Positions 21,417-44,724 of a stretch of DNA of 64,000 bases are shown piece after piece; positions within the stretch are counted from its first letter, which is position 1, and every line of letters begins with the position of its first letter. The position numbers and the translations under genes are program-made. The DNA is taken from NCBI GenBank assembly GCA_029532415.1, contig JAQOTA010000027.1, forward strand, positions 248,001-312,000, written 5' to 3'. Under the pieces are notes generated by a model, which saw only the letters and a program-made list of their open reading frames with translations, made no database searches and was not told the origin of the DNA. The stretch comes from Marasmius tenuissimus. Taxonomy: Eukaryota > Basidiomycota > Agaricomycetes > Agaricales > Marasmiaceae.

Positions 21417-24146
21417 ATGAAACTCGACAACAAAAAACACTGCACCATGACCACACAATACCTCTCGTTAGCAAAATGGGCCAGCTTACAAGATGAATGG
21501 CCTGTGAGGTGGATGCATGAATTGGAAGGTGAGCACGAATTGGCACAAAGGAGGGTCATCGAACTTACTTTTGAGCCAGCATAGTTAAAGTGCACAGTGG
21601 GTATAACAAAGTAAACCTCACATGGGTAATACACAGAGTGTTCTTGTAGACTTGAGATGCTTGTGAAGAGGTGATAATTGAGTAGATTGTCCTAAGGCTT
21701 AAGGCCTTGGAATACCAGCTTTTATACACAAGTTTCTGTACATGTAAGAGTAATTACAATACTATGAAACTACTACTAGAAGTAGGTATTTAGCCAATAC
21801 TAATGAGTCTTTCATCTGTTGTGCCTCGCACTTTGGACTATAAGCATCATACTTGATGCAACTACATACGTAGTAAATATCTACAGTGTCATTTGTGAAG
21901 CAATAACTACGTAGATACATTCTTGCATGAGAGTGCAAGTGTTCCTAGAGGTGTAGCTCTATAAATAGTGTGACACGTAAACAACACGTCAATATGTATC
22001 ACATGATATCCATCATGTTCAACACTTACCAGTCAGCTTGAGGACTTGGAACGCCACAAAGCACAGCTTCTTCAGAGCTTCAGACGACATGTTTCAGGCT
22101 ACGCGGTCTGAACCCACTTCATGTGGAGCACTAGCCATCGTCTTCCGGCCGAAGTGCTTTCCGAAATCTTCTTTTACTTCATTTTGCATGAAAGGAACTC
22201 TACCAACAAACTTGCAAGGCCGGAATGGTTGGGATCTACCGGCGTGTGTCACTACTGGCGCACAGTTGCTCTCGCCAACCCCAGGCTGTGGAACCAGCCC
22301 AACCTTCGCCATCCTCTGATGATTCAGGAGATGATCAATTGTTCTCAATCACTCCCCTTGATAATCGACGTTCGTATCACCCGCTGGACAACAACTCAGG
22401 ACAGGAGCACAGTCACAACAGTGCTTCATGAGTATACCTCCCGAATTCAACATCTCCACCTCTATGTATCTAGCGAGATTAGACTGAGCAAGGTCTTTCC
22501 ACGCCCCTTTCCCCATCCTACCCCTCTCCTTCACACAATAGAGCTCCATAATCCTGGAAACATTGGGTTCTTCACACTCCCCAAAGATTTCTTGGGTGGC
22601 TTGGCACCAGCCCTTACACACCTCACCCTTGTTGGTTGTCTCATCAAGCCTGACTCTCCTCTCCTCCGCAACCTCACATTCCTTCACTTGGATATGAGGT
22701 CGGCCGTTCTTCCTATCAACTACCATCGCACCCTTGGTAATGCACCGAGGCTCAAACACATGGAGCTATATACCAGATACATCCTCGAGACGCTTCTGTC
22801 CATCATCTGCCTACTTCCTCAACTGCACTATTTCTTCCTTTCCAGGTGTCATGAACAGCCTCTGTGACTGGGAACCTCTCAGGCCATCCAATCTGGGACT
22901 AGGGATCAAGGGTGAAAGAGATAGTTATTGAGCAAGTACACCCTCAACATAGCACAAGCTAGGCAAGCGGTATGGACGAAATGGACAAGCTGGGGAACTA
23001 TCTAAAAGTGACCATGAGTATATATGACAGTCCTAAGCTGTATACTGATCATGGGAATGAACTGCAAAGGGATAAATGATGTATCTGTGGATCTGATCAA
23101 AGGGGACCATGTACACATCAGTGGGAAATACAGGTAACGATGTATTAAAGAAAGAATGATATGGAACATCATAGAATGAAATGGGGATCATACAGTGATG
23201 CTGGGACATGTATCTGTGTGAAAAGAAGTGGAAACAAAGGGATGTTGACCAAGGGACCAGGAAAGTGAAGAATAGTGGGTAGATTCGTAACACCGGGGGA
23301 ATGAAACGCTGCACCCGCCTTTTGACACAGATGTTGTTCACGGTGTCAACCTTGATCCACATCGAGACTGATTTCCAGCAGCGACATACCTGAATGGAGG
23401 CAGACGCGGAGTTTCGTGGTTTTCTTTTGACCGTAACAAAAACCCTTTCTCCTGGTGGAGGATCAGCAGCAGCACTGGTGCCTATCAAATCTCTTCTTGT
23501 CGAAGGGTATAATAGTGCGTGGTTGCAGTGTAGAGCCTGGACCACAGCCGTATCCCCTTCCCCAGAATTCAAAACAGCCTGGCCCTGCCTCTGTTTAGGG
23601 TTCCAAGAAAACTTGACCCCTTGCCATCATTTTGATTGGGACGATGTCCTGCAAAAATTATTTTTGACCACATTATCCATTGACCAACTCAAATTCCTCT
23701 CCCTCAAAATCCAGGATCGCGTTCTTCCTCACACCTCGCAGACCATCCTCAGTTGTTTTGGATGTCTACGCAAACTCCACACTGTCAAGATAACGGACAG
23801 CTTTCCACATGACCTTGTCCTTGGACTGTGTAGCTGCTTGAATTCATCTCATCCACCATCACTTCCGTTACACTTGCCACCGCAACAGACCCCTGATACC
23901 CCTGCTGAACTCGTGAATGAGGGCGTGATATCCTTCCCCGTGTTGCCAGTACTAAGGCTCAACAATGTCCCCATCAAGTTATCTGCCCTGTTCTTCATTC
24001 AGTTTGTGACGAGCCTCTTGATTCGGAAGGAGTGAAACGTGGCGATTGACAAAGTGGAATTGCGGGAGTGTGAAGGTCTAAAAGTAAAGGAGCTTTGGTC
24101 TATGGAACAGGTTCTTCAACTCCTTCAAGTTCAATCGGAATTGTAA
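21417..24146 (+). pseudogene. F-box gene, disrupted by a solo LTR and nonsense codons
   Basis: Frame 21417-21568 (starts MKLDNKKHC, includes a coiled-coil-like HELEGEHELAQRR) continues in the same frame at 22030 once the solo LTR and one target copy are ignored (SQLEDLERHKAQLL). A TGA at 22109-22111 follows. The F-box and repeats are in 22121-22867 (HRLPAEVLSEIFFYFI ... CHYWRTVALANPRLW). About 520 bp without homology (22868-23390) breaks the middle. The C-terminal part is in 23394-24035 (LVPIKSLLVEGYNSAW matches the neighbour's PLKSLLVEGYDRAW). A second TGA (24033-24035) precedes a same-frame tail up to 24146. It is a paralogue of the intact gene at 17891-19696, on the opposite strand. Confidence 0.85.
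21564..22029. repeat. Solo LTR of a copia-type element
   Basis: 21569-22024 (456 bp) is a diverged relative of the two 506-bp LTRs of the copia element at 27.6-35.3 kb. It shares gagccagcatagttaaagtg, ctaaggcttaaggcctt, ctctataaatagtgtgac and ccatcatgttcaaca. It is flanked by a perfect 5-bp duplication CTTAC (21564-21568 and 22025-22029), so it arose by insertion followed by LTR-LTR recombination. Confidence 0.9.
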
Positions 24147-24254: not shown

Positions 24255-26919
24255 TCATGAACCAGAGATCGGTGGGACATGAATCAACTCCTCAACCAAA
24301 CTCCTGAGTTCCCTCAGCATTGAGTTGGAAAGGACACAACAGCGAAGGATCAGCTTTTGGATCCCACCATCATTTTCTGACCGTACCCTGAGTCCCGCCT
24401 TCAGAGCATTGAAGAGCTCGTGAGACTCAGTCTTGAAAATCACATCATGTATGTCCACTGTCCGTAAAGCACGGAATGATACCCAATGTGATTCATAGTT
24501 GACTGTGCCTGTTGAAGTATTGCTCCTCAACAATGCCTTCAAAAATTGTGGAGCGACAGAACAGCTGATGGCAACAGTCGACAACTTTTCCAGCAGGACC
24601 AGAGACTCCATAATGTCCTCCTCGACAGTATAAGGGATCAGGCAAAGCACATGAATGCCTGCAATCGGGAGCATGTCTGGCCAAACTCTATGCAGAACTT
24701 GATCTGGAAAACTCTCGTTATTGAACTCTGTGTAGAATAACACGTGGAATAGGGGATGAGGGGAGGGACAGCCACCAGACTCAATGCAGCCAGGCTGAGA
24801 GCACCCACATGCCCATGCTGAAATTTCCCAGTTTTGGATTTGGAGGGTGGTTATCATGGTGGGGTTGGCTGTGGAGAACACCTTTTGAACGATGTGGGAA
24901 GGTAGGCTCGTGTTTTGTGTGATTGACAAGAATGCCAGCAATCTCGAAATGGCGCATATGACTGGGGTGTGGAAGGGAAATCTGATCCAAGAGAGACGAG
25001 ATGTCGGGTGTGGACGCGTGCACAATGCAAAGATGGCGTAGATGAGGAAAGGATAAGGATGACTCCTCGGCTGGAGTAGTGGACAATTGAGGGACTGCCT
25101 TGACCAGTTCCAGTACCTCAAGATTTGGCATACCGTGCAGAACTGCCAAGAAACGGTCAGAAGAAGGGGGGAGCGGAGAGCCCATCTGATTGATGAGTTT
25201 GAGAGTGGTCAAATTGTTTTTGAAGAGAAAAGAATCCCATGAACTTATGTACGGTTCTTGTATGACAAGCTCGGCAAGACGGGGGGAATGATTTCCAAGG
25301 AATGATGGAGGTAAAGAAAGTTGTACAACGTCAGTCTCAATGTGTAGAGACTGGAGGAGGGGTGGTGATTGGGTCATTTTGAGAAACACATCGGATAGAA
25401 CACCGAAAGGTGCTGTCAGATCAAGGCTAGCCATGCGGTTCATGTACTCTAACAAAGCATCATAAATGACCTCATTGTTTGCAAGAGGTTTTGAATACAT
25501 CAGCAAAACGGGAAATGCATGGAGGCATGGGTCCATGCGGCCCCATGTGGCACCATACCTCCGCCATACCAGTATGGAGCAAGGGGGGCATGCATGGAGC
25601 AGATAATCCTATTCCATGCGTCCATACCATCCATACCTACTGAGATTTCCTGTACCCCTTCCATACCTTCCATGCCCCCAACGCCTTCGGGATATCATGG
25701 CCAGTTGAAATCGAAGTGAATATGAATAAATAGTCTTTATATTGCATGCTACATACAGTTACAAACCACTATAAAACAGTGATATGTACATACAATGCCG
25801 GTACTAGTCTCCAAACCACAGCTGGATACCATTCTTCATGCTTGTGCTGCTGGAACACAACATTAGAGAGTCAATGGTTGTCTATTAGCCAACCAAACAA
25901 AACATACTCACCACGAACTTCGGCAATCTAATACCCTAAACCACACCTGCCAGGACCCACTAAATCTGTATCAGCAGGATTCTGAGGAGTCATGAGCCGA
26001 AAAAGAGTGTAGACGACTATCACACTCTGCCATTGCCTCATTATCCTTTTGACTAACACGTCCGAGGTCAGGTATTTGGAAACTGCTTTGAATTGATGTC
26101 AGAAAAAGCCAACCTGAATCATAGAGATGAGTGGGAGACTTACTAAGACTTGATGTGCTTGGAGCCAACACAAATTTTGACCTAGATGCTTGACTGGAGA
26201 AAAAGAAAGTGTTAGCGACACCGGCAACTGATATCAACGATGTGTTGAAGTGAAAAATCACCTGACAAGCCACTCGGAACTTCCTGAAGAACTGTATAGT
26301 TTTATCACGGCATCCTATGAGTAACTCAATGCCCAAGTTATATTTTCTTTATATTTTCTTCAAGCGCAAAGTCCAGTTTGCACTTCATCTGTAGATTTTA
26401 CTTACCTTTACATACCATGCAAAGGTATACTAGATTCAAATTAGAACCAACATTAAGATTGAGCGGTCCCAAAAGGACAGGCTATGCCTCGGTTATGCAT
26501 CCATACATCCATACCTCCCATACCTCCTCAGAGGTATGGACGGTTTCTTAAGAAAGCAGTATGGGGCACATGGAGAAAGTGTATTTTCCATGCATCCATG
26601 CGCCCCATACCTCTCATATAATTCCCGTTTTGCTGATGTAGTGAAACCTCCACTTCACCTCCAGAGGTGCATCCCTCGATCTTGCCAGCATCTCGCACGC
26701 CCATAGAGGGTATCTAAACTTTGGAGAAGACCATAACGTGGGTGATCCCAAAGCTACAAAACACCATCGTCGGCAGACCTGGCTGAAGTAGAACCAGTCC
26801 TTGTCGTTGTGATCATGTCACTTGTGCTCTCTCGGGAAAACACAGTGGGTAAAGATAAGGGTCAGGATTTCTGCCGGAAGGCAAGATATAGCCGCCAAAG
26901 AGCTTGAACTACTGTACAT
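24255..26919 (-). pseudogene. F-box gene split by a 1.14 kb transposon
   Basis: Minus-strand reading starts at the ATG at 26919 (MYSSSSSLAAISCLPAEILT), the start of an F-box. A TGA at 26818-26820 interrupts it, then the same frame continues (VCRRWCFVALGSPTLWSS) up to 26641. There a TIR element with TA duplication is inserted. Deleting the element and one TA makes the frame run straight on (FHYSKPLANN...) into 25495. The C-terminal part, with leucine-rich segments (LEVLELVKAVPQL, LRHLCIVHAS), reads in one frame to about 24900. It then needs a one-base shift to continue to the stop at 24255. It belongs to the same F-box family as 17891-19696. Confidence 0.85.
25496..26640. mobile_element. 1.14 kb TIR element with CCATRC-rich ends, TA duplication
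   Basis: The element is 25498-26638, with inverted ends CATCAGCAAAACGGGAA / TTCCCGTTTTGCTGATG and TA on each side. Just inside both ends lie arrays of ccatacc, ccatgc and ggtatgg words (25515-25690 and 26490-26620). These look like subterminal binding sites for a transposase supplied elsewhere. The middle has a minus-strand frame (25971-26336) with possible introns but no recognisable transposase. Confidence 0.8.
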
Positions 26920-27240
26920 GGCCGCCGGTTGACTGCCGGCCTGTCAGGATCAGGCCGGACCGTGGACGGCGATCCAACCTGAGCCTTCCGCAATGCATGA
27001 GAATGGACTGAGGACGAGGGAAGTGAGGAGTGCGGAATATGGAATATAACTTGTGTTGATCCAACTAAGGATCAAATAGATACATGAGACTATATATACT
27101 AATAGGATAACCAATAATGGAAATAGGCGGAAACACGTAGCGGTCAAGATGGAACAAGTATGAGATGAACATAAAGGGAAGCTACTGGATAGGGGGCTAG
27201 TATCATAGAGGAGTGGCCCGGATCCTCACACGGCCATCTG
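26920..27240. other. Upstream flank of the broken F-box gene
   Basis: GC-rich at the left (gccggcctgtcaggatcaggccgg is a small hairpin near 26936-26959). Nothing else is recognised. Confidence 0.3.
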
Positions 27241-27480
27241 ACCTGCAGGCTGAACCGGCAACACCTGCAGGTTCTTTGGCCGGAAACCCACAGGTCGCAC
27301 TGAATTCTGCCTGCAGGTTAGTCTTTTTTTACCTGTGGGTCGGGCTGCCAATGACCCATAGGTCAAAGTTTTTTGACCTATAGGTCACGTCCGTTGAAAC
27401 CCATAGGTCGGTCCAGCTGTAACCTGTGGGTCGAACACTTCGCTACCTGTAGGTTTGAGTATCTCTATAACCTACAGGAC
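27241..27480. repeat. Array of eleven palindromic motifs, period 22-24 bp
   Basis: Palindrome-like decamers of the form ACCYRYRGGT start at about 27241, 27263, 27286, 27308, 27331, 27353, 27375, 27398, 27421, 27445 and 27469. Examples are acctgcaggt, acctgtgggtc, gacccataggtc, gacctataggtc and acctgtaggtt. The spacers differ in sequence but the spacing is constant at 22-24 bp. This is the pattern of clustered sites for a dimeric DNA-binding protein. No gene is assigned to it. Confidence 0.8.
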
Positions 27481-27580
27481 AAGTGTTACATCGCTGGCTT
27501 TTCGCCCGGTAGGTCTGCTTCCTTCCTGATAAATGGTCAGTACATTAGAACATTATCTTGTGAACATCTTCACTCTCCTA

Positions 27581-28086
27581 TGATGAGCCAGCATAGTTAA
27601 AGTGCACAGTGGGTATAACGAAGTAAACCTCACATGGGTAATACACAGAGTGTTCTTGTAGTCTTGAGATGCTTGTGAAGAGGTGATAATCAAGTAGATT
27701 GTCCTAAGGCTTAAGGCCTTTCGTCCAGTCTTTTATACATAAGTTTCTGATACATGTAATGAGTATTACACTAACTGAAACTACTACTAGAAGTAGGTAT
27801 TCGGCCCTAAAGGCATAAAAGACATTAGTACTGTGTAAGTACTTCTACCATGAATGGTAGTATGCTTGGTGAGCATAGTCATGTTTGCCTCATGTATTGG
27901 AGGCTCTACTTATGCTATTGGATAGCGACTGTCTATAGTGTCATATATGATAAAACTAGATGTACATAGACAGAGACGTAGTACTTGCATGAGGACGCAA
28001 GTGTTCTAGAGGCGTAGCTCTATAAATAGTGTGACGCGTAAACAACACGTCAACAGTGTATCACATGATATCCATCATGTTCAACA
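27581..28086 (-). repeat. 3' LTR of the copia element
   Basis: 506 bp. On the minus strand it starts TGTTGAACATGATGG and ends GGCTCATCA. It is nearly identical to 34778-35283. Confidence 0.95.
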
Positions 28087-28095
28087 CTCCCCCTC
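28087..28095 (-). other. Polypurine tract
   Basis: On the minus strand GAGGGGGAG lies directly before the 3' LTR, the expected place for priming plus-strand DNA synthesis. Confidence 0.75.
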
Positions 28096-28121
28096 ACTAA
28101 GTTCATCATGCGATCATGGAA

Positions 28122-31085
28122 CTAGTGAAATGTTAATCCTAAAGATTGCCGGAACAATTCGAACTTTGTTCTGCCAAGATTCTTCGTAAGAAGATCAGCA
28201 GGTTGTTTAGCAGTTTCAACGAAATAGATTTGAGTCTTTCCGTGTTCCACTGCTTCCCTGATGAAATGATATCGATTGTCGATGTGTTTTGTTCTTTTAT
28301 CAGTAGCTTCATTGCTGCTGAGAAAGATAGCGCCTTGATTGTCGCTAACACATGGAACAGATCGAATAGGGAAGTTCAATTCGTTCAATAACGACTTCAT
28401 CCAGCAAGCCTGACGTGTACAGTCAGATAGAGCCATATACTCTGCTTCCGTGGATGATAATGCAACCGTTTTCTGTTTCTGAGAGACCCAGCAAACTGGT
28501 GCATTGGCAAGCTTCACGATATATCCAGTCTGTGATCGACGATCATCTTTATCAGTTGCCCAATCCGAGTCAGCAAAGGCAAGTAATCCTTGGTTGGATC
28601 TACCATCGTAAATAAGTTCATACTTTGCAGTGTGAACAAGGTATTTTACGATGTAAAGTGCCTTCTGGAGATGTTCCTGATTAGGATTAGCTCCATACTG
28701 TGACATCTTGATTACAGCAAAGGATATGTCTGGTCTCGTTCCGAGAGCCAAGTAAAGTAATGATCCAATAACCGATTGGAATCTATGCCTAATCTCGGGA
28801 TTAACCTCCCCCTGGTTTTGGGTTGGGTTATAGCCTTCTGGCAAAGGCGTATATGCCGTCTTGGCGTTCAGAACTCCGAATTTACGAATTATCTTTTCAA
28901 GATAGTCTCGCTGATCAAGGATCAGTCTGCGATTCTTCCGATCTCGAGTAATTCGCATTCGCAGAAATTCTGTTGGCTCGCCTAGATCTCGGCATTCCCA
29001 GATTTTCATGAATTTGCTTTTTAGTCTATTGACAAGGTTGCGATCAGGACCCATGAATAAAGCATCATCGACATAGACGACGGCAATGACCATATTGCCA
29101 TTCTTGTTGAAGACATATACGCCGGCATCGGATAAGCATCGTTTGAATCCCAGACGTTTCATGGATTCAGTACATTGACGCCACCAGGCACGAGAAGCCT
29201 GTTTTAATCCGTACAATGCTTTGCGTAACCTCCAAACCTTGCTGGAGTCTGTAACGAAGCCTTCAGGTTGTTCCATGTAAATCTCCTCATCTAAGGCACC
29301 ATAAAGAAATGCTGTTTTAACGTCTAGCGCAGAGATCTCCCAATCTTCAAGCGCTGCTAGTGCCAATAGAAGTCGTACGGTTTCGAATCGTACCACAGGA
29401 GAGAACAACTCGTTATAGTCTATCCCTTGTTTCTGCGAAAATCCTTTCGCAACAAGTCTTGCCTTCTTTCGGCCATCAGACTTGATGTCAAATACCCAGC
29501 GGGATTTCACCGCTTTTTGGCCTTTAGGTAGTGTGACCACATCAAAGACGTTTCTGTCCTTGAGTGATTGTAATTCCAGTCTGCATGCTGCTTCCCAAGA
29601 TGGTCGTTCATCTTTAGGACGTTTCTGGACTTGTTTGTATGTCCATTCACGAACGTTATCATAACTACTGGCTTGAAGACCATATAGTTGATGACCGTTA
29701 TTCAGCAAGTAAACCAAGTAATTTTCTCCCCCTTGCTGAGCCAGATCGCTCATATCGTCATCCGTGTCCATAGGGGCGGCTGGATCAGGAACCTTATTTG
29801 GTATTGTTTCAGGTTCATTTGTCGGATTAATCTGACTTTGCCAGCGTGCTCGAGAATCGATATCGCGTTCGATCTCAACAGGATGTCGATTTCCGTAAAC
29901 ATTAAATGGACGGTTGGGAGTTACTCTATTTCTTGGAGGGTTTCTTCTGGCAGCTGGTGGTGGACGAGCTCGTAAGTTCTCCCACTCATCATAGTCAGCT
30001 TGGCGAAATCCAAATGGATTTGTATTTCCAGATGAACCAGCAGACCGTGGATCCAGACCATACTGATTAGGATTGTGATCGGAGCCTTTCGGTGATCCGA
30101 ATCCATCAGTATTTGGATGATTACCGTTGTGCACATCATCGCTTTTATCATCCGGGATAGGGTCCAAGGGAGGATCTCCCCCAGGCTGATGATCGTCATC
30201 ATCTGATCCTGGTGGAGGTGGAGGATTGAAGAAATCATCATCATTGTGATGATCTTCATGGCCATCATATGGGTACGTTGGAAAGGGTATAGACCGGACA
30301 GGTTTGTCGGTTTTATCAAACTCTATGGATCCGGGCACTTCTTTCTGACATTTAGGAAACCAGTTCTCATCGAAAACTGCTTGTGGGGTAATGTATACAG
30401 AATTGTTGGTTGTTCGAAAGAATCGATAAGCTTTTGATCCGCTCTCGTAACCAATGAAAATCATTGCTTCAGAGTGTGGAGCAAGCTTATTTTTACGTTT
30501 CGGTATGTATGCATATGCACCACATCCGAACGTCCTGAAGTATGAAACATCAGGCTTCTTATCTTCAAACAATTCAACTGGAGTTCTGTATTTCCTCGAA
30601 CGAATAGGAGTTCTATTGTAGATATGGACGGCTGTGAGAATTGCAAATTCCCACCAGTTTTCAGGCACACAAGCCTGAAAGCGCATAGCTTCAGATTTTT
30701 CTCGTAATGTACGATTATATCTTTCTGCTCGTCCATTCTGTTCATGCACGTTGGGAGAACCTCTTTGTGGAAATATTCCTAGAGAGTTATACCAGTCCCA
30801 TTGTTCATTTGAAAAGAATTCTCCCCCTCGATCGAAATGCACACTTTTGACCTTTTTATTAGTCTGGCGCTCTACAAGAGCTAGCCAATTGCGCAATTTC
30901 TGATCTGTATCGCTCTTTTTACGAATTGGATATACCCATCCGTATGATGTTGCATCATCGAACAAGGTTAATGCATATTCGTTTTGATAATAAGAACGAG
31001 TTGGATATTCTATCAAATCACCGTGCACGAGCTCAAGAGGCTCCTTAGCTCGTTTAGAGGATAAAGGGTACGATTTGGCAACCAT
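28122..31085 (-). CDS. Copia pol: integrase core, reverse transcriptase, RNase H
   Basis: 987-codon frame. The integrase DDE residues appear in HGDL (about residue 21), DRGGEF (about 84) and the Glu of HEQNGRAER (about 120). The reverse transcriptase begins near residue 510 (SRWVFDIKSDG, RLVAKGFSQKQGIDY) and has the catalytic YVDD near residue 672. RNase H follows (ADSDWATDKDDRRSQTGY, ALSSTEAEYMALSD, TKHIDNRYHF) and ends with the usual ADLLTKNLGRTKF. The frame also continues upstream without interruption to the TGA at 31104-31106, so the Met at 31085 is not the true start but lies just after that stop. Confidence 0.95.
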   Translation of the reverse strand: MVAKSYPLSSKRAKEPLELVHGDLIEYPTRSYYQNEYALTLFDDATSYGWVYPIRKKSDTDQKLRNWLALVERQTNKKVKSVHFDRGGEFFSNEQWDWYNSLGIFPQRGSPNVHEQNGRAERYNRTLREKSEAMRFQACVPENWWEFAILTAVHIYNRTPIRSRKYRTPVELFEDKKPDVSYFRTFGCGAYAYIPKRKNKLAPHSEAMIFIGYESGSKAYRFFRTTNNSVYITPQAVFDENWFPKCQKEVPGSIEFDKTDKPVRSIPFPTYPYDGHEDHHNDDDFFNPPPPPGSDDDDHQPGGDPPLDPIPDDKSDDVHNGNHPNTDGFGSPKGSDHNPNQYGLDPRSAGSSGNTNPFGFRQADYDEWENLRARPPPAARRNPPRNRVTPNRPFNVYGNRHPVEIERDIDSRARWQSQINPTNEPETIPNKVPDPAAPMDTDDDMSDLAQQGGENYLVYLLNNGHQLYGLQASSYDNVREWTYKQVQKRPKDERPSWEAACRLELQSLKDRNVFDVVTLPKGQKAVKSRWVFDIKSDGRKKARLVAKGFSQKQGIDYNELFSPVVRFETVRLLLALAALEDWEISALDVKTAFLYGALDEEIYMEQPEGFVTDSSKVWRLRKALYGLKQASRAWWRQCTESMKRLGFKRCLSDAGVYVFNKNGNMVIAVVYVDDALFMGPDRNLVNRLKSKFMKIWECRDLGEPTEFLRMRITRDRKNRRLILDQRDYLEKIIRKFGVLNAKTAYTPLPEGYNPTQNQGEVNPEIRHRFQSVIGSLLYLALGTRPDISFAVIKMSQYGANPNQEHLQKALYIVKYLVHTAKYELIYDGRSNQGLLAFADSDWATDKDDRRSQTGYIVKLANAPVCWVSQKQKTVALSSTEAEYMALSDCTRQACWMKSLLNELNFPIRSVPCVSDNQGAIFLSSNEATDKRTKHIDNRYHFIREAVEHGKTQIYFVETAKQPADLLTKNLGRTKFELFRQSLGLTFH

Positions 31086-31103
31086 TTTGCCTTTGGCACA
31101 GCC

Positions 31104-32981
31104 TCAGCATGGTTTCGTTTCTCCCTTCGAAGTAACCAACTTCATTGGAAGCCCTTTAACATTATCCATTAATTTTCCTAAGACTCTGGGATCACAATGT
31201 CCCATACGTCTGTGCCATAATTCAGAAGTATTGAAAGATACAACAGATGTGAAGGAAGTTTCTCCCACAAGAACCTTTGCGTTCATCCATCGTAAAGGAT
31301 CATCTTTATGGCTTGGGTAAAAGCTCATTAAAAGAGAACCATCTTTCTTGCTCCGGATCGAAGTCTCTGGAGAGTCCAGTATAGTATAGTAACCTATACT
31401 CCGGAACTTCCCACTAGAGATTAAACGATGTGGGCTGTCGGGATTATACATCACTGGGTATAACTTTGTGACTTGCGTCACTCCTGCGCTATTGGTGTGT
31501 CGGATGAGGACAGTACCATAGCCTACTATTTGCACATTTGCTTTATCACCCGCTGATGTAGTAAGACCTATTGGCATTTCTAAAGTCTGATAGTCTGAGA
31601 AATCCGTTTTATACGGAGTCATATGCGCTGATGCCCCACTATCAAGTAGCCAGGCATTCTGCGTATTTCTCACTTCACAATCACTCGAAAATGCAGCAGA
31701 AAACGACTTATATTTTGTCGTTGCATATACAGAAGTAATATTACATTTCCTTGGTACTGAGTTCCTTAGGATATGATAGTTCTGCATCGAGGATTTAGTG
31801 AAAGTTTGACTATTAGAACTTTGAAAAACTTGCCAGTCTCCATGATCGTTGCTTTCAGCCCAATCGTTATCAACTCCTTCAAGGCCATCTCCATAGTCAC
31901 CATCATCAAAGTACCGTTCATGCCATTGAAGCGGTTCTTGATTCTGACTTTGGAATGTTTGGCGAACAAGAAGTTCTCGTCTTGTTCTGAGTTCTTCTTG
32001 ATAACGTTGATTTGCGGCGTCTTCAACTTCTATCCAAGCTTCCAATCGGCGTTTATAGTCCTGCCATTGAACGAATCTCGTGGCTTGATATGGCTGATTA
32101 TCATTAACAACCATAGTGATATTGCCAATACTCGTGCCATTAGCAACGTGCAAGGGCATTCCATTGGTCCTTAATCCAATTACTGCAGGTCCGTAATTCT
32201 CGAATTGAGAATTTCGGGGATCACTTGGAGATGTAACCCAGGGATCAACCTCAGGTTGTTCATCTACCGGACTAAGTCTTTCCGGTTGATCTGGTGGAGC
32301 AGTGGTTGGGCGAGAAGGAACTTCAATGTAATCCTCTTCTAAGGATTGTATGCCATAAAAAGATTTGGGAGAGCTTGGAGGTGTGTGGACGATTTGGTCC
32401 TGCCATTGTCGTACTCTGGGTGGTGTAGTTGCGGGGCGATTTATGTATTCATGGGTAGTAGGGACTGGAGATTTGGAACGATTAAGTGACTCGGCTAATT
32501 CCATGAAATCTCCAGGGTATGTTCTTGGTCGTTCATTGAAGCGACTACCCTCAAGTTCTCTTCGAGGAATATCAGCCTGAGTCATGGGAACAGACATTCT
32601 AATGTTGTTCATCCATTTGTACAAGTGCGTGTGCCAGTTACGAACATCTGGAAGACTAAGGTGAGGGATAAAGCGAATCCAGCGCCTATTAAACCCTGGT
32701 TGTCTCCATTGGGATGTTCTAAATTGACTCGCTCTTATGTCTGTCGTTCCGAATAACCATTTCCCATCAAGACCAAGCTTGACTAACGAATGCCAGAAGA
32801 TAGGATTCAACACTTGTATAGGAAGTGTGAAGTTCTTCTTATTGACTCGGAGAAGTACCAGAACGAGACTGATCAGACCATTTGGGAGGAGAGTTAAATC
32901 TATTAACACCAGAGATTTTGGCGTTATGGGTGGTATAGGCAGCAGGACCAGAATGAATTCCATTCCTTCTATTCCATTCAT
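31104..32981 (-). CDS. Copia protease and start of integrase, ends at TGA
   Basis: 625-codon frame. The aspartic protease site is WLLDSGASAHMT. The integrase zinc-binding region begins LWHRRMGHCDPRVLGKLM and is cut by a TGA (31104-31106) that falls between the two Cys of its HHCC motif (KPC, stop, GCAKGK). Past the stop the frame continues into the pol frame. The stop is therefore most likely a point mutation rather than a natural end. Confidence 0.9.
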   Translation of the reverse strand: MNGIEGMEFILVLLPIPPITPKSLVLIDLTLLPNGLISLVLVLLRVNKKNFTLPIQVLNPIFWHSLVKLGLDGKWLFGTTDIRASQFRTSQWRQPGFNRRWIRFIPHLSLPDVRNWHTHLYKWMNNIRMSVPMTQADIPRRELEGSRFNERPRTYPGDFMELAESLNRSKSPVPTTHEYINRPATTPPRVRQWQDQIVHTPPSSPKSFYGIQSLEEDYIEVPSRPTTAPPDQPERLSPVDEQPEVDPWVTSPSDPRNSQFENYGPAVIGLRTNGMPLHVANGTSIGNITMVVNDNQPYQATRFVQWQDYKRRLEAWIEVEDAANQRYQEELRTRRELLVRQTFQSQNQEPLQWHERYFDDGDYGDGLEGVDNDWAESNDHGDWQVFQSSNSQTFTKSSMQNYHILRNSVPRKCNITSVYATTKYKSFSAAFSSDCEVRNTQNAWLLDSGASAHMTPYKTDFSDYQTLEMPIGLTTSAGDKANVQIVGYGTVLIRHTNSAGVTQVTKLYPVMYNPDSPHRLISSGKFRSIGYYTILDSPETSIRSKKDGSLLMSFYPSHKDDPLRWMNAKVLVGETSFTSVVSFNTSELWHRRMGHCDPRVLGKLMDNVKGLPMKLVTSKGETKPC

Positions 32982-33765
32982 TCGTTATTGCAGCAATCAA
33001 ATCGGTAGGTTTAAGTTCTTCCTTCTTCATACGGGATACTTGCTGCTTGAAAAGCTGCCAGCGCTTTTCATTAAGCTTGGCTGTGATCATTAAGCACAGC
33101 AAGTCGTCCGAAATATCTACTCCATGATCCTTAAGTTGGTCCCAAACAGTCAGCATGTAACTGATTCCTGGGACTGGATTAAGGTGTTCAGGAAGTTGGA
33201 CGTTATGCAAGTCCGTATACAGATTCATCATCTTTGAAGAAGATTGAACTCCAAACGTAGATTTGAGTTTAGATAAGGTTGAAACTACCGAAGTTTTATC
33301 AACATGCGCGTCGTGAGCACGACGAGTTCACATTTTGATAATACCAATTACTTGGTTACGCCTAGAAGTCCACTCAGCTAGAGCGGTAGCTTCTCCTGAA
33401 GTAGCAGGAGAAGATGTTTCAGGCATTTCTTCATCCAAGGCTTGAGGTATGCCTTGGGTAAAGAGGTAACCTTCAAGTAATCGGAACCAATCTTCGAAGT
33501 TCGAACCATCATCTAGCAAAACTGGAATGATACTAATTCCTCCTGACCCAGCAGGAAAGTTGCTGTCCGCAACCTGAGAGTACAACAGTTCTGTATTATA
33601 GTTATAAACTTCTACAGAATTTTCTACTTCTGTTCCTAGAGTATATCCCGGCGTATTGCGAACAAACGTCGTTGGGGGATTACCACTTGGGGAATGAGAA
33701 GCAGACCTTGATCCTGATTGAGACATATTGAGGTCTGCCAAAAGTCCCGTGAGCATACTCTTCAA
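32839..33765 (-). pseudogene. Copia gag with one in-frame TGA
   Basis: Two open stretches, 33328-33765 (contains IIPVLLDDGSNFEDWFRLLEG, a copia gag-type N-terminus) and 32839-33231, lie in the same frame, separated by a TGA at 33328-33330 (IIKM, stop, TRRAHDAH). The gag frame ends at 32839 and the next frame starts in the +1 phase, overlapping it. A +1 frameshift, as in Ty1, or a simple indel mutation are both possible. A clear CCHC zinc knuckle was not found. Confidence 0.8.
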
Positions 33766-34777
33766 ATATAGAAGGGTGGAGCCAAGAGAGTGTCAATCGA
33801 CGAAGGCTTCTAAGAAGCACCCATAAATAAATAGGGTTCGATGCACACCGAGAAATGCTCCAAAGGTCTAGGACTTTTAACAGGCTGTATGCGTCAAGCA
33901 GATCATGGGGTGTACCGCGTGCAGGTAGTGCAGGGGAGTTAATCTGGTTACGAAGCCCTGCCCAATTGCTAGGGTCTTACAACGTTCCCAGTGTGTTATC
34001 GGTGTCTGGTGTCCCATCATGCTATCTGGTCTCAACCCCAGACTAGCAAAAGTATGAGTGATCAGCTCATACTGTCCGAATGACCCATTGAAAGTTATTA
34101 TTAAACCTAGTCATCCATATGAATTGAGTTCATGCACCCTCTGCCTTAGGCATGTCGGTGTCCAGAAAGCAATCATAGGTGAGCTAGAGTTTAACAATAA
34201 CGTGGAAGAGAGGGGTCATCGGGAGGGGAGTCCCTGTACATACTAAAGTGGCCATGTGATACCGTAAAACTGTATAGTATCAAAACCTAGTTGTAAGGAG
34301 ATCAAATCTCCCAGCATGTATTTCATGCCCGGTCTTTCGACCGTCAGGAATCATGGCGAGTTGGTTTATAAGCACAACCCCATAGACCCCTAAACGATGC
34401 CTCATGGTGAGGATCATCGCCAACCATTGGTTTTCATCGGCATTAGGCAGTGATAATATAAGATCAAAGCCCAATCCGGGTTATCAGCAGGGAGACAGAG
34501 CCGCTAACGCGGATAGGTCTGTGCCGAAGAAGATGAAGCCAAGACAGTATGTACATGCGTTCGTGCAACATGCAACAGTACAGGGACATAGTGGATAGGT
34601 GTAAAGGGAACTAACAACCCTTGACCTTGACACCAGACGATGACAAGCCCGACATCGCTAGAGACTTCCATAACCCATGTAGGTTACAGGTCGTCCGCTA
34701 GGATGGTGGTGACACACGGAAGCTAGGCTACTCCGATCATAACATCGACCTGACCACCGCTTGCGGGGCCCATAACC
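33766..34777 (-). other. Long untranslated leader of the copia element
   Basis: About 1 kb lies between the 5' LTR and gag, with only short frames. The primer-binding site is at its LTR end. Confidence 0.5.
34763..34777 (-). other. Putative primer-binding site
   Basis: Directly after the 5' LTR the minus strand reads GGTTATGGGCCCC. This resembles the complement of the anticodon arm of initiator tRNA-Met (which carries GGGCTCATAACC), the half-tRNA priming known from copia and Ty5. One position is inserted or changed. Confidence 0.5.
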
Positions 34778-35283
34778 TAATGAGCCAGCATAGTTAAAGT
34801 GCACAGTGGGTATAACGAAGTAAACCTCACATGGGTAATACACAGAGTGTTCTTGTAGTCTTGAGATGCTTGTGAAGAGGTGATAATCAAGTAGATTGTC
34901 CGAAGGCTTAAGGCCTTTCGTCCAGTCTTTTATACATAAGTTTCTGATACATGTAATGAGTATTACACTAACTGAAACTACTACTAGAAGTAGGTATTCG
35001 GCCCTAAAGGCATAAAAGACATTAGTACTGTGTAAGTACTTCTACCATGAATGGTAGTATGCTTGGTGAGCATAGTCGTGTTTGCCTCATGTATTGGAGG
35101 CTCTACTTATGCTATTGGATAGCGACTGTCTATAGTGTCATATATGATAAAACTAGATGTACATAGACAGAGACGTAGTACTTGCATGAGGACGCAAGTG
35201 TTCTAGAGGCGTAGCTCTATAAATAGTGTGACGCGTAAACAACATGTCAACAGTGTATCACATGATATCCATCATGTTCAACA
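34778..35283 (-). repeat. 5' LTR of the copia element
   Basis: 506 bp, same length as the 3' LTR. About four differences are seen (for example tccgaag versus tcctaag, and agtcgtg versus agtcatg). Confidence 0.95.
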
Positions 35284-35288
35284 TCCTA

Positions 35289-36148
35289 TCTCAATCTTCA
35301 TTGTTGTGCCACTCTCATCAAGCTGCGTGAGAGGACTTTCAAGTTTTGTCTTCACACACAAATTTCAGGCACTTCCTGTATTGACGGATGAATCGTACTA
35401 GATATTCGGAGCTCTTACGGGTAATCTGAGATAGTGGAGGTAGTGCTGGAGCCTTTGAGTTGCGTAGGGGGTTAGTAATTCCTTCGCGTCGCGACTTGCG
35501 ACCAGTACAAAGGCATCCTAGAGAACGAAATCCTGCAAAAAAAGAGAGAGAGAAAGAAAAGACACAACAGAAGGAACAAGTAACATGCGTGTCAAATCAA
35601 GAATCCACAAAAAAATCCCACCTGGTTCTAAAGTTGAAGCTCCTAGTATAAGTAGGGAAAGATCGGGGAGCCATTTTTGACCAAATCAGGTCTTCCTCGA
35701 TTGGTACACTGCACGGGATACTGTACTATGAGGTAAAATGACCCATAGGCCACATATTTGAGACCTAGTATTTTTCCGGTCGCACACTGGCACGATTGCT
35801 GACAGGACTATCAGCGGGTAGCGGTTTGCGCTTGAAAGTTCGTGGCTCGTACTCTGTATCCTCAGTGTCGTTGATGCAGATGGGCGAGCTACGGGACATG
35901 CAGGGACACGCAGGCACATGTGCTGGGAAAAAGATGCCCTTTGCAGAAGGTGGTCCGTGCGCACGGTTATATTCAACCTCATTTTCTGCCAACTTGCTTG
36001 TTTCGATTCTCACAAGTGCACAGACGGTAGAAATTGATCATAGAAAATCTCACATGCTTCTGCCATTCACAGGGACGTCCGTTACACGCATCGTGATCAT
36101 GCATCGCTATCCAAATCGCAGGGTCACCGTACTCGTCTTCGACCGACC
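35289..36148. other. Flank with a possible gene remnant on the minus strand
   Basis: On the minus strand, 35765 to about 35890 reads as a plausible last exon after an acceptor (cccgtag): ICINDTEDTEYEPRTFKRKP and on to the stop. No matching upstream exons were found, so it may be a remnant. Otherwise the region is the upstream side of the hydrolase gene. Confidence 0.3.
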
Positions 36149-42906: not shown

Positions 42907-44724
42907 TCACTTGTAAATCTCCTCCGCGATAACGATATTTATGGGACCAAAAGACTCCTGGAGTTCCTTTACCTCCCTAGCGGACACGTAACTGAGCTCA
43001 AAGGGGATAACGGTCTGCTGAGGTCTCCCCGAATCGCACTGCCTGGTATACCGGATGAGTGAAAATTCCCGTAACGGATATGAATGAAGCCCTCTGTTAT
43101 TCAGCATGTCCAGGGCAAGCTCTACGGTCTGTGCGTCCACAGTGATCCCTTCTAACCGGAGCTTGAGATTTTTCAGTTTCGGGAGGAACGTAAATTCATG
43201 TTCGGAAGACCTCTCGTTAAGTTTCGAGAGTATGGCGACGAGGAAAGGGTCAAGATAATCGCCGTTGGCCCCGTTAGCCTTTAGGCGGGTCGTAACAGTG
43301 AGTTTGAACTCAACAAGAGAGCCGGACAACGACTCGAGGAGGGAGAGTACGGCGTATCTCGAAGGATCCAAGTTGGGCATGTGGTGAAGCCTCAACGACA
43401 TCGTCTCGAGGGGGGAGGAAGATCGGGAAAGCATACTAAGAGACGGTGTGGCAACGAGAGAGCGGCAGTAGAGATGGAATTCCTTGAGGGAGGGCGCCGT
43501 GATGGAGGAGAAAAAGAACGATTGAAGCGGATCAAGTTCCCCTTCCGTGTAGTCATGGATTGTCATGCCTGTGAGTCGGGATAAGATGACTTTTATTTGT
43601 GGCTGGACGGGCGAGAGGGTATTCCGTCCGTCGTGATCATGGAAGCTGCATTTGAGATATAACGAGTGCATATTCTTGCACCTCGCTAGATCCTGAAGCA
43701 AATTGACCGGAAACCCCGTATGGTAGTCTTTTGCATCAAAAGCATGAATAGCGAGTCCAGTAAGCTGAGAGTGCGGAAGTAAGGCCAGCTGGTGCGCATG
43801 AAACAGCTTCGAAGCCGTGAGATGAGGCACATTGCCCATAGCACGCCAGAGCCAACTCTCCTTGTCTATGGGACGGGAAGTCGCCCCAAGGGTTAACTTT
43901 CTCACATGCCACAGATTCACTGTGCGATCTGTCGGGAGTGCTTCATATCCATCGCCTTGTAATGCCAGGATCGCGCATCGCTGAAGATGGGGACAAAGTA
44001 TTTCCCATAAATCCGCGCCGTATCTCCAAAACTGCCACCTCTCGCGACGCCTCGCTTTCCGTTGTATCAGAAGGTTAAGGCCGCAGCCCTTGGAGTTTTT
44101 GAGATGGAGTGCAAGTGGTCCTCGGAAGTCCCGGCCAACCAGGTCAAGTTCCACGCTGATGGACGACCAGAGGACTGGTGAACCACTGATAATGACTCTC
44201 CACTTCCTGCAGACGTGAGTAAGGGCAATTGTCGGCATTTCGTAGATCATTCTGCCTGTAAGCTCGCATTGGTCGATGACGAGGGAGTGCCGGTTGTAGG
44301 AGAAACAGAGGAAAGTGAAGATGAGCTGCCATATCTCCACCGGTACTCTGCGACAAGCAGAGAGAGCAGACCGGTACAGTGTGAGGTTTCCCTCCAATGT
44401 CGACGTTTTCTTCCTCAACGTGCTTATTCTCTCCTCTAGAACCGTGATAAGTTGGTCATTTTGCTGAATTACGGTCTGATCCTTGTCTAACAAATTCCGC
44501 AGCAACGAGACATCCACATCAGTCGGAACGTAGGTGGACTGTACGAATTGAGGGTGAGTTGTGAGACACTCGTGAGGTATCGGCAGACATTCGCGCTCCC
44601 GGCAGACAAGACGCGACTTTTGCTTCATTGTCGCGTAAAATCTTATGAGGAGGCTTGGGTTGAGTAGGCGGCTATGTGCGAAGATCAACTTCGGAACAGA
44701 GGCATAGTGCGAAACCTGACACAT
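42907..44724 (-). CDS. F-box protein with LRR-like region
   Basis: Single 605-codon frame. A coiled coil (LLRNLLDKDQTVIQQNDQLI...EERISTLRKK, about residues 75-115) precedes the F-box (RVPVEIWQLIFTFLCF ... LTHVCRKWRVIISGSPVLW, about 125-190). The C-terminal two thirds carry leucine-rich segments. Expected role is substrate recognition for an SCF ubiquitin ligase. It is a more distant relative of the 17.9-26.9 kb F-box family. The initial 33 residues before MKQKS may be untranslated. Confidence 0.85.
   Translation of the reverse strand: MCQVSHYASVPKLIFAHSRLLNPSLLIRFYATMKQKSRLVCRERECLPIPHECLTTHPQFVQSTYVPTDVDVSLLRNLLDKDQTVIQQNDQLITVLEERISTLRKKTSTLEGNLTLYRSALSACRRVPVEIWQLIFTFLCFSYNRHSLVIDQCELTGRMIYEMPTIALTHVCRKWRVIISGSPVLWSSISVELDLVGRDFRGPLALHLKNSKGCGLNLLIQRKARRRERWQFWRYGADLWEILCPHLQRCAILALQGDGYEALPTDRTVNLWHVRKLTLGATSRPIDKESWLWRAMGNVPHLTASKLFHAHQLALLPHSQLTGLAIHAFDAKDYHTGFPVNLLQDLARCKNMHSLYLKCSFHDHDGRNTLSPVQPQIKVILSRLTGMTIHDYTEGELDPLQSFFFSSITAPSLKEFHLYCRSLVATPSLSMLSRSSSPLETMSLRLHHMPNLDPSRYAVLSLLESLSGSLVEFKLTVTTRLKANGANGDYLDPFLVAILSKLNERSSEHEFTFLPKLKNLKLRLEGITVDAQTVELALDMLNNRGLHSYPLREFSLIRYTRQCDSGRPQQTVIPFELSYVSAREVKELQESFGPINIVIAEEIYK

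Follow-up and report, generated by a model that had tools for sequence, protein, structure and literature searches.

A row of eleven palindrome-like sites in Marasmius tenuissimus DNA reads, with a probability of just under 0.8, as the left subterminal array of a non-autonomous, cut-and-paste, MITE-like transposon that measures 869–874 bp and makes 8-bp target duplications, and whose sites would most likely be bound by transposase dimers supplied by a partner. The array occupies 27241–27479 of the window, the 64,000-nucleotide stretch analyzed here (G000:C9:248001-312000, from a 71 Mb assembly in 70 contigs), and the element that contains it represents a new family, low in copy number, within a known kind of mobile DNA. 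The run of palindromes is thereby explained as the wreck of nested mobile elements, and the family so delimited is small and sharply bounded, with a clear candidate recognition site.

A motif scan placed eleven sites within one mismatch of ACCYRYRGGT in the array, eight of them exact and three with one mismatch, starting at 27241, 27263, 27286, 27309, 27331, 27354, 27376, 27399, 27422, 27445, and 27470. Their successive start-to-start spacings are 22, 23, 23, 22, 23, 22, 23, 23, 23, and 25 bp (mean 22.9 bp). The initial annotation, which had reported eleven regularly spaced sites near this motif, is confirmed, its positions being correct to within 1 bp; its word "palindromes" calls for a narrower reading, as the sites are indeed palindrome-like but the symmetry is perfect in just 2 of 11, the retained features being CC..GG arms and a YRYR core. 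Chance was assessed with chains, defined as consecutive sites (at most one mismatch) at 21–25-bp spacing. The array forms a chain of 11, whereas 5000 dinucleotide-preserving shuffles of 27231–27480 reached at most 2, a length found in two shuffles, with 697 giving 1 and 4301 giving 0; this motif-randomization check, named in the same annotation, places the regular chain beyond chance. Elsewhere the window has 19 further sites with at most one mismatch, and the reversed-window control has 21; in neither set does any chain exceed 1.

The spacers, previously described as unrelated, are nearly so. Their mean identity within the array is slightly elevated, at 0.297 versus 0.252 in shuffles (sd 0.018), with 32 of 2000 shuffles equally high, and Tandem Repeats Finder detects a weak 23-bp repeat of 2.1 copies at 27376–27424. 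Both observations speak for an otherwise improbable explanation, in which a tandem repeat within the element is decaying, plays no part in binding, and has left the sites as vestiges of its unit. The proposal that the sites lie nearly on one face of the DNA fails at 10.5 bp per turn, where the drift per site is about 65° and Rayleigh R is 0.09; the sites come into phase near 11.3 bp per turn (R 0.88).

A genome-wide search for the array, likewise suggested in the initial annotation, found it elsewhere. Six contigs contain pairs of exact sites at array spacing (30 forward matches versus 1 in the reversed control), and five contain triplets under the looser pattern ACCN4GGT (22 matches versus 0). 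The loci of the family are the window copy on contig C9, the copies on C12, C14, C23, and C33, and a short old piece on C28; genome queries with the left array, the right end, and the C14 left end returned no additional array locus. The left array of the window is 95% identical to that of C23 over 351 bp, with each site's own core kept between the two, and 76–77% identical to those of C12, C14, and C33. The last three are the complete copies, of 869–874 bp, giving an element of about 0.87 kb: the alignment of C12 with C33 spans exactly 874 bp and shows a single difference, C14 aligns with these 874-bp copies over 869 bp at 85%, and the flanks of the three do not align with one another. Copy number, at five loci with arrays plus an old fragment and a few relic tips, is low where a high one is usual for MITEs, and we therefore label the family only MITE-like. 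No reading frame longer than 106 aa is present in the three copies examined (C33, C23, and C14), with frames read without intron modeling.

These copies share inverted ends and target duplications, and among the three options first offered for the array (an operator array, the subterminal region of an unrecognized transposon, or a chromatin boundary) the transposon is thus the correct one. That the array is instead a unique cis-regulatory operator array or boundary for neighboring genes of the window is very improbable: the regularity of the sites would suit such a role, and protein may still bind them in place, but the array recurs in five other contigs, amid unrelated flanks and as part of a bounded element, and two insertions disrupt the window copy. 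As a general caution, an array of regular palindromes close to a gene may be the end of a transposon rather than an operator. Among ten window proteins scanned, one F-box-like match above the Pfam cut-off lies at 22121–22867, about 4.4 kb before the array, and a second, just under the cut-off, at 42907–44724.

The boundaries of the element are defined by its termini and by target duplications. All three complete copies start with GAGAACGGAGCAGATACTGTACATG, and the element termini read GAG..CTG. The inverted ends are imperfect: their first 33 bp agree at 24, 24, and 25 positions in the three complete copies, versus 7–9 after a one-position slide. A perfect 8-bp target duplication flanks two of the three, namely GTATATGT at C33 and CAATAAAG at C14. 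At C12 the flanks are CCGGATTC and ATTCGGGC; they have only ATTC in common, and a full duplication is absent; a 4-bp loss at the junction would account for this. When the C14 flanks were joined with one CAATAAAG, they matched without gaps across the junction in seven of eight related LTR loci (49–52 bp, 75–78%), and a 31-bp piece of the C23 left flank gave a gapless match as well (84%). This is the look expected of an old empty site. The empty site of C33 was sought in a neighboring paralogous stretch, where the alignment ends about 47 bp short of the junction.

Both ends are built in the same order: the terminal inverted repeat, a GC-rich stretch capable of forming a hairpin, 5 bp, and then the sites. 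The first three sites start 51, 73, and 96 bp from the left tip and 54, 76, and 98 bp from the right tip, and sites follow every 22–23 bp thereafter. As single-stranded DNA, the hairpins score z = −2.8 (left) and −3.3 (right) in C33, and −2.9 (right) but only −1.4 (left) in C23. At a tolerance of one mismatch, left arrays hold 9–11 sites in five copies, and right arrays, which are gappy, hold 6–7 in the four copies keeping them. The outermost left bases are unrecognizable in the window and C23 copies; in the expected place of the C23 left tip stands a 16-bp perfect palindrome, AGCGGTAGCTACCGCT (L007:3629-3644). An unlikely alternative retains the transposon but makes a dimeric host protein, such as a zinc-cluster factor, the binder of the array in place of the transposase, with the task of driving or silencing the autonomous partner. 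The dimer-like form of the site and the conservation of its arms above the spacers agree with such a factor, but an array is present at each end, its first sites similarly far from the tip (51/54, 73/76, and 96/98 bp), a layout more in keeping with the recognition of ends than with a one-sided promoter.

The window copy itself is a wreck, in which a solo LTR and a copia retrotransposon both sit within the element and the right end is lost (Table 1). The solo LTR splits the left terminus from the array, and the other transposon copies consequently align to the window copy only from 27231; it matches all eight of the related loci fetched (L015-L019, L021-L023). On the far side of it, the near-palindrome of the left terminus (C9:274920-274941) differs from the C23 palindrome by one mismatch. 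The copia element was earlier placed 100 bp from the array, and its start does lie about 100 bp past the last site, but its insertion point falls within the transposon that carries the array. Its two long minus-strand frames, of 987 and 625 aa, carry copia-type domains, and the insertion looks recent. The copy stops near 35766, within the right array, the rest of that array and the right terminus being missing. Because one end is missing, the copy is taken to be dead.

Table 1. Features of the nested element in the window (positions are those of the window)
Feature	Position	Strand	Details
Left-terminus remnant	26910..26941	+	TACTGTACATGG plus GC-rich near-palindrome GGCCGCCGGTTGACTGCCGGCC; by-eye comparison with the ends of other copies
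Solo-LTR-like insertion, TG..CA, 289 bp	26942..27230	+	5-bp duplication CGGCC at 26937–26941 and 27231–27235
Left subterminal array, 11 sites	27241..27479	.	22–25 bp spacing; same array in C23, C12, C14, C33
Element body up to the copia insertion	27480..27580	+	Last 5 bases are the duplication TCCTA; uninterrupted in C23
Copia retrotransposon inside the element	27581..35283	-	Duplication TCCTA; LTRs 99.4% identical over 504 bp; RVT_2, rve, Pol_BBD
Remaining element body	35284..35766	+	89.9% to C23 over 513 columns; one right-array site left at 35741 (one mismatch)

Conservation within the array distinguishes the sites from the sequence between them. In the left array, C23 and C33 are identical at 60/66 arm, 34/44 core, and 84/129 spacer positions, and C23 and C14 at 60/66, 34/44, and 91/129, so that between subfamilies the arms are 91% identical versus 64–71% for the spacers. 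The right array behaves alike, with 36/42 arm and 57/97 spacer positions identical between C23 and C33. By column, ten left sites have an invariant C at positions 2 and 3 and an invariant G at position 8; the G at position 9 changes once, and the outer A is less constant. Core differences between C23 and C33 comprise 10 transitions and no transversion, whereas the spacers differ by 30 transitions plus 15 changes that are transversions or gaps; the core differences between C23 and C14 are 9 transitions and 1 other. Sliding the arm mask by 3–22 columns lowers identity to 0.61–0.80 versus the observed 0.91, while a slide of one column leaves it at 0.92 (C33) or 0.86 (C14), because the conserved columns overlap; with other limits, the slid-mask maxima are 0.94 (C33) and 0.88 (C14).

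This pattern runs counter to a decaying tandem repeat, for which neither arms at 91% between subfamilies, nor the retention of each site's own core between the window and C23, nor core changes of 19 transitions and 1 other versus 53 and 30 in the spacers (the pairs C23–C33 and C23–C14 summed, which are not independent) would be expected. The close pair C14–C33 leans the other way, as its arms and spacers hardly differ (0.92 versus 0.87 left and 0.94 versus 0.89 right, with slid controls reaching 0.95–0.97). The better retention of arms than of spacers between subfamilies fits protein binding, and constraint on the sites is supported, resting on few independent sequences.

How the array might work in a transposon can be outlined from this anatomy. 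Each ACC-YRYR-GGT site would hold a DNA-binding domain as a dimer, the likeliest binder being the transposase of an autonomous partner that is absent or diverged, and the dimer rows on the two ends would capture these and pair them, so that the element could be excised and inserted. From the kept arms, the YRYR core, the even spacing, and the matching placement at both ends we infer dimer rows that serve end recognition and pairing. A more specific version, speculative and rather unlikely as it stands, has a transposase or accessory protein reading ACC and GGT arms as a pair that flanks a flexible YRYR core, and forming a regular dimer row at both ends on DNA of about 11.3 bp per turn, with the spacing itself part of the recognition signal. 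We know of no description of such spacing-dependent end recognition by dimer rows for hAT, KDZ, P, or CACTA elements. Finding the binder would assign the family to a superfamily and reveal how transposon ends are specified by the number of sites and the distance between them.

CACTA/En-Spm elements carry subterminal TNPA-type repeats, arrays of short protein sites inside both ends, and the present family resembles them in having arrays of short repeated, putatively protein-binding sites in the same place. It departs from them, and Plavaka is ruled against alongside them, in its 8-bp duplications and GAG..CTG ends: the CACTA clade is described as having mostly CA..TG ends and 2–5-bp duplications (PMC12730594). 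Hermes, a hAT element, has subterminal repeats bound by BED domains, two of which engage an imperfect palindrome (PMC10368747). The likeness lies in short repeated sites (putative binding sites here) inside both ends; unlike the ACC-YRYR-GGT sites spaced every 22–23 bp, those of Hermes are AAGT-type, irregularly placed, and rarely palindromic (PMC10368747). Galileo, of the P-element superfamily, carries multiple THAP sites within its long ends, and the one closest to the tip is about 70 bp away from it (PMC3688188). Here too several putative sites lie in repeats within the ends, the nearest 51–54 bp from the tip, but the inverted repeats are short, unlike those of Galileo, which are unusually long and of Foldback type (PMC3688188). 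Duplications of 8 bp are usual for hAT and are also reported for Zisupton, of the KDZ (Kyakuja–Dileera–Zisupton) group (PMC12730594). The 8-bp duplications of the present family, perfect in two of three copies, accordingly fit both hAT and KDZ and are not specific to hAT. KDZ transposase domains are strongly expanded in this genome, with 165 matches versus 23 for the hAT dimerization domain. Two KDZ families (L044-L047, among the 165 domain matches) have no such array in the stretches compared, which missed some ends, and no sequence link to the family; one hAT family (L048 and L049, among the 23 domain matches) likewise has no such array in its stretches, which also missed some ends, and no link to the family. 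A three-link chain in L047 at two mismatches was rejected as, by eye, a GGGTGC-type simple repeat. A repeat bearing KDZ has a 19-bp tandem array of its own, CGTCAAGATTCNGTTCGGG-like in seven in-register copies, near one end of the stretch that L044 and L045 have in common (L044:6846-7034). In the literature, no published family was recognized as matching, which is weak evidence of absence in print.

The autonomous partner was not found in genome searches with the left array, the right end, the C14 left end, terminal patterns of two widths, and the right tip (E up to 10), and no transposase was linked to the family, the frames around C50 and C28 having been read by eye only. Beyond the known copies, these searches yielded the old fragment on C28, a relic tip at C50 and at C16 in surroundings that by eye are similar, and, at C20, what may be another relic tip. 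One other repeat, about 97–99% alike among its copies and free of arrays, accounts for the hits at C7, C23:1465553, and C37, which were rejected as members, and weak terminal-pattern hits occur at chance level (13 and 14 versus 26 and 14 in the control). Terminal-pattern hits with three mismatches number 8 versus 3 in the control; five of these eight were inspected, leaving out C4, C11, and C23:1034208, and C3, C10, C19, and C69 proved to have no array while C16 is the relic. At C20:1099552 (L042 about 4953), sequence like the family terminus, without an array, lies just upstream of a gene whose product, by eye, we take to resemble mitochondrial ribosomal protein uL3. Elsewhere, reading frames situated between F-box-like genes on the minus strand (L035:2158-3289) resemble, by eye, a borosin-type peptide methyltransferase.
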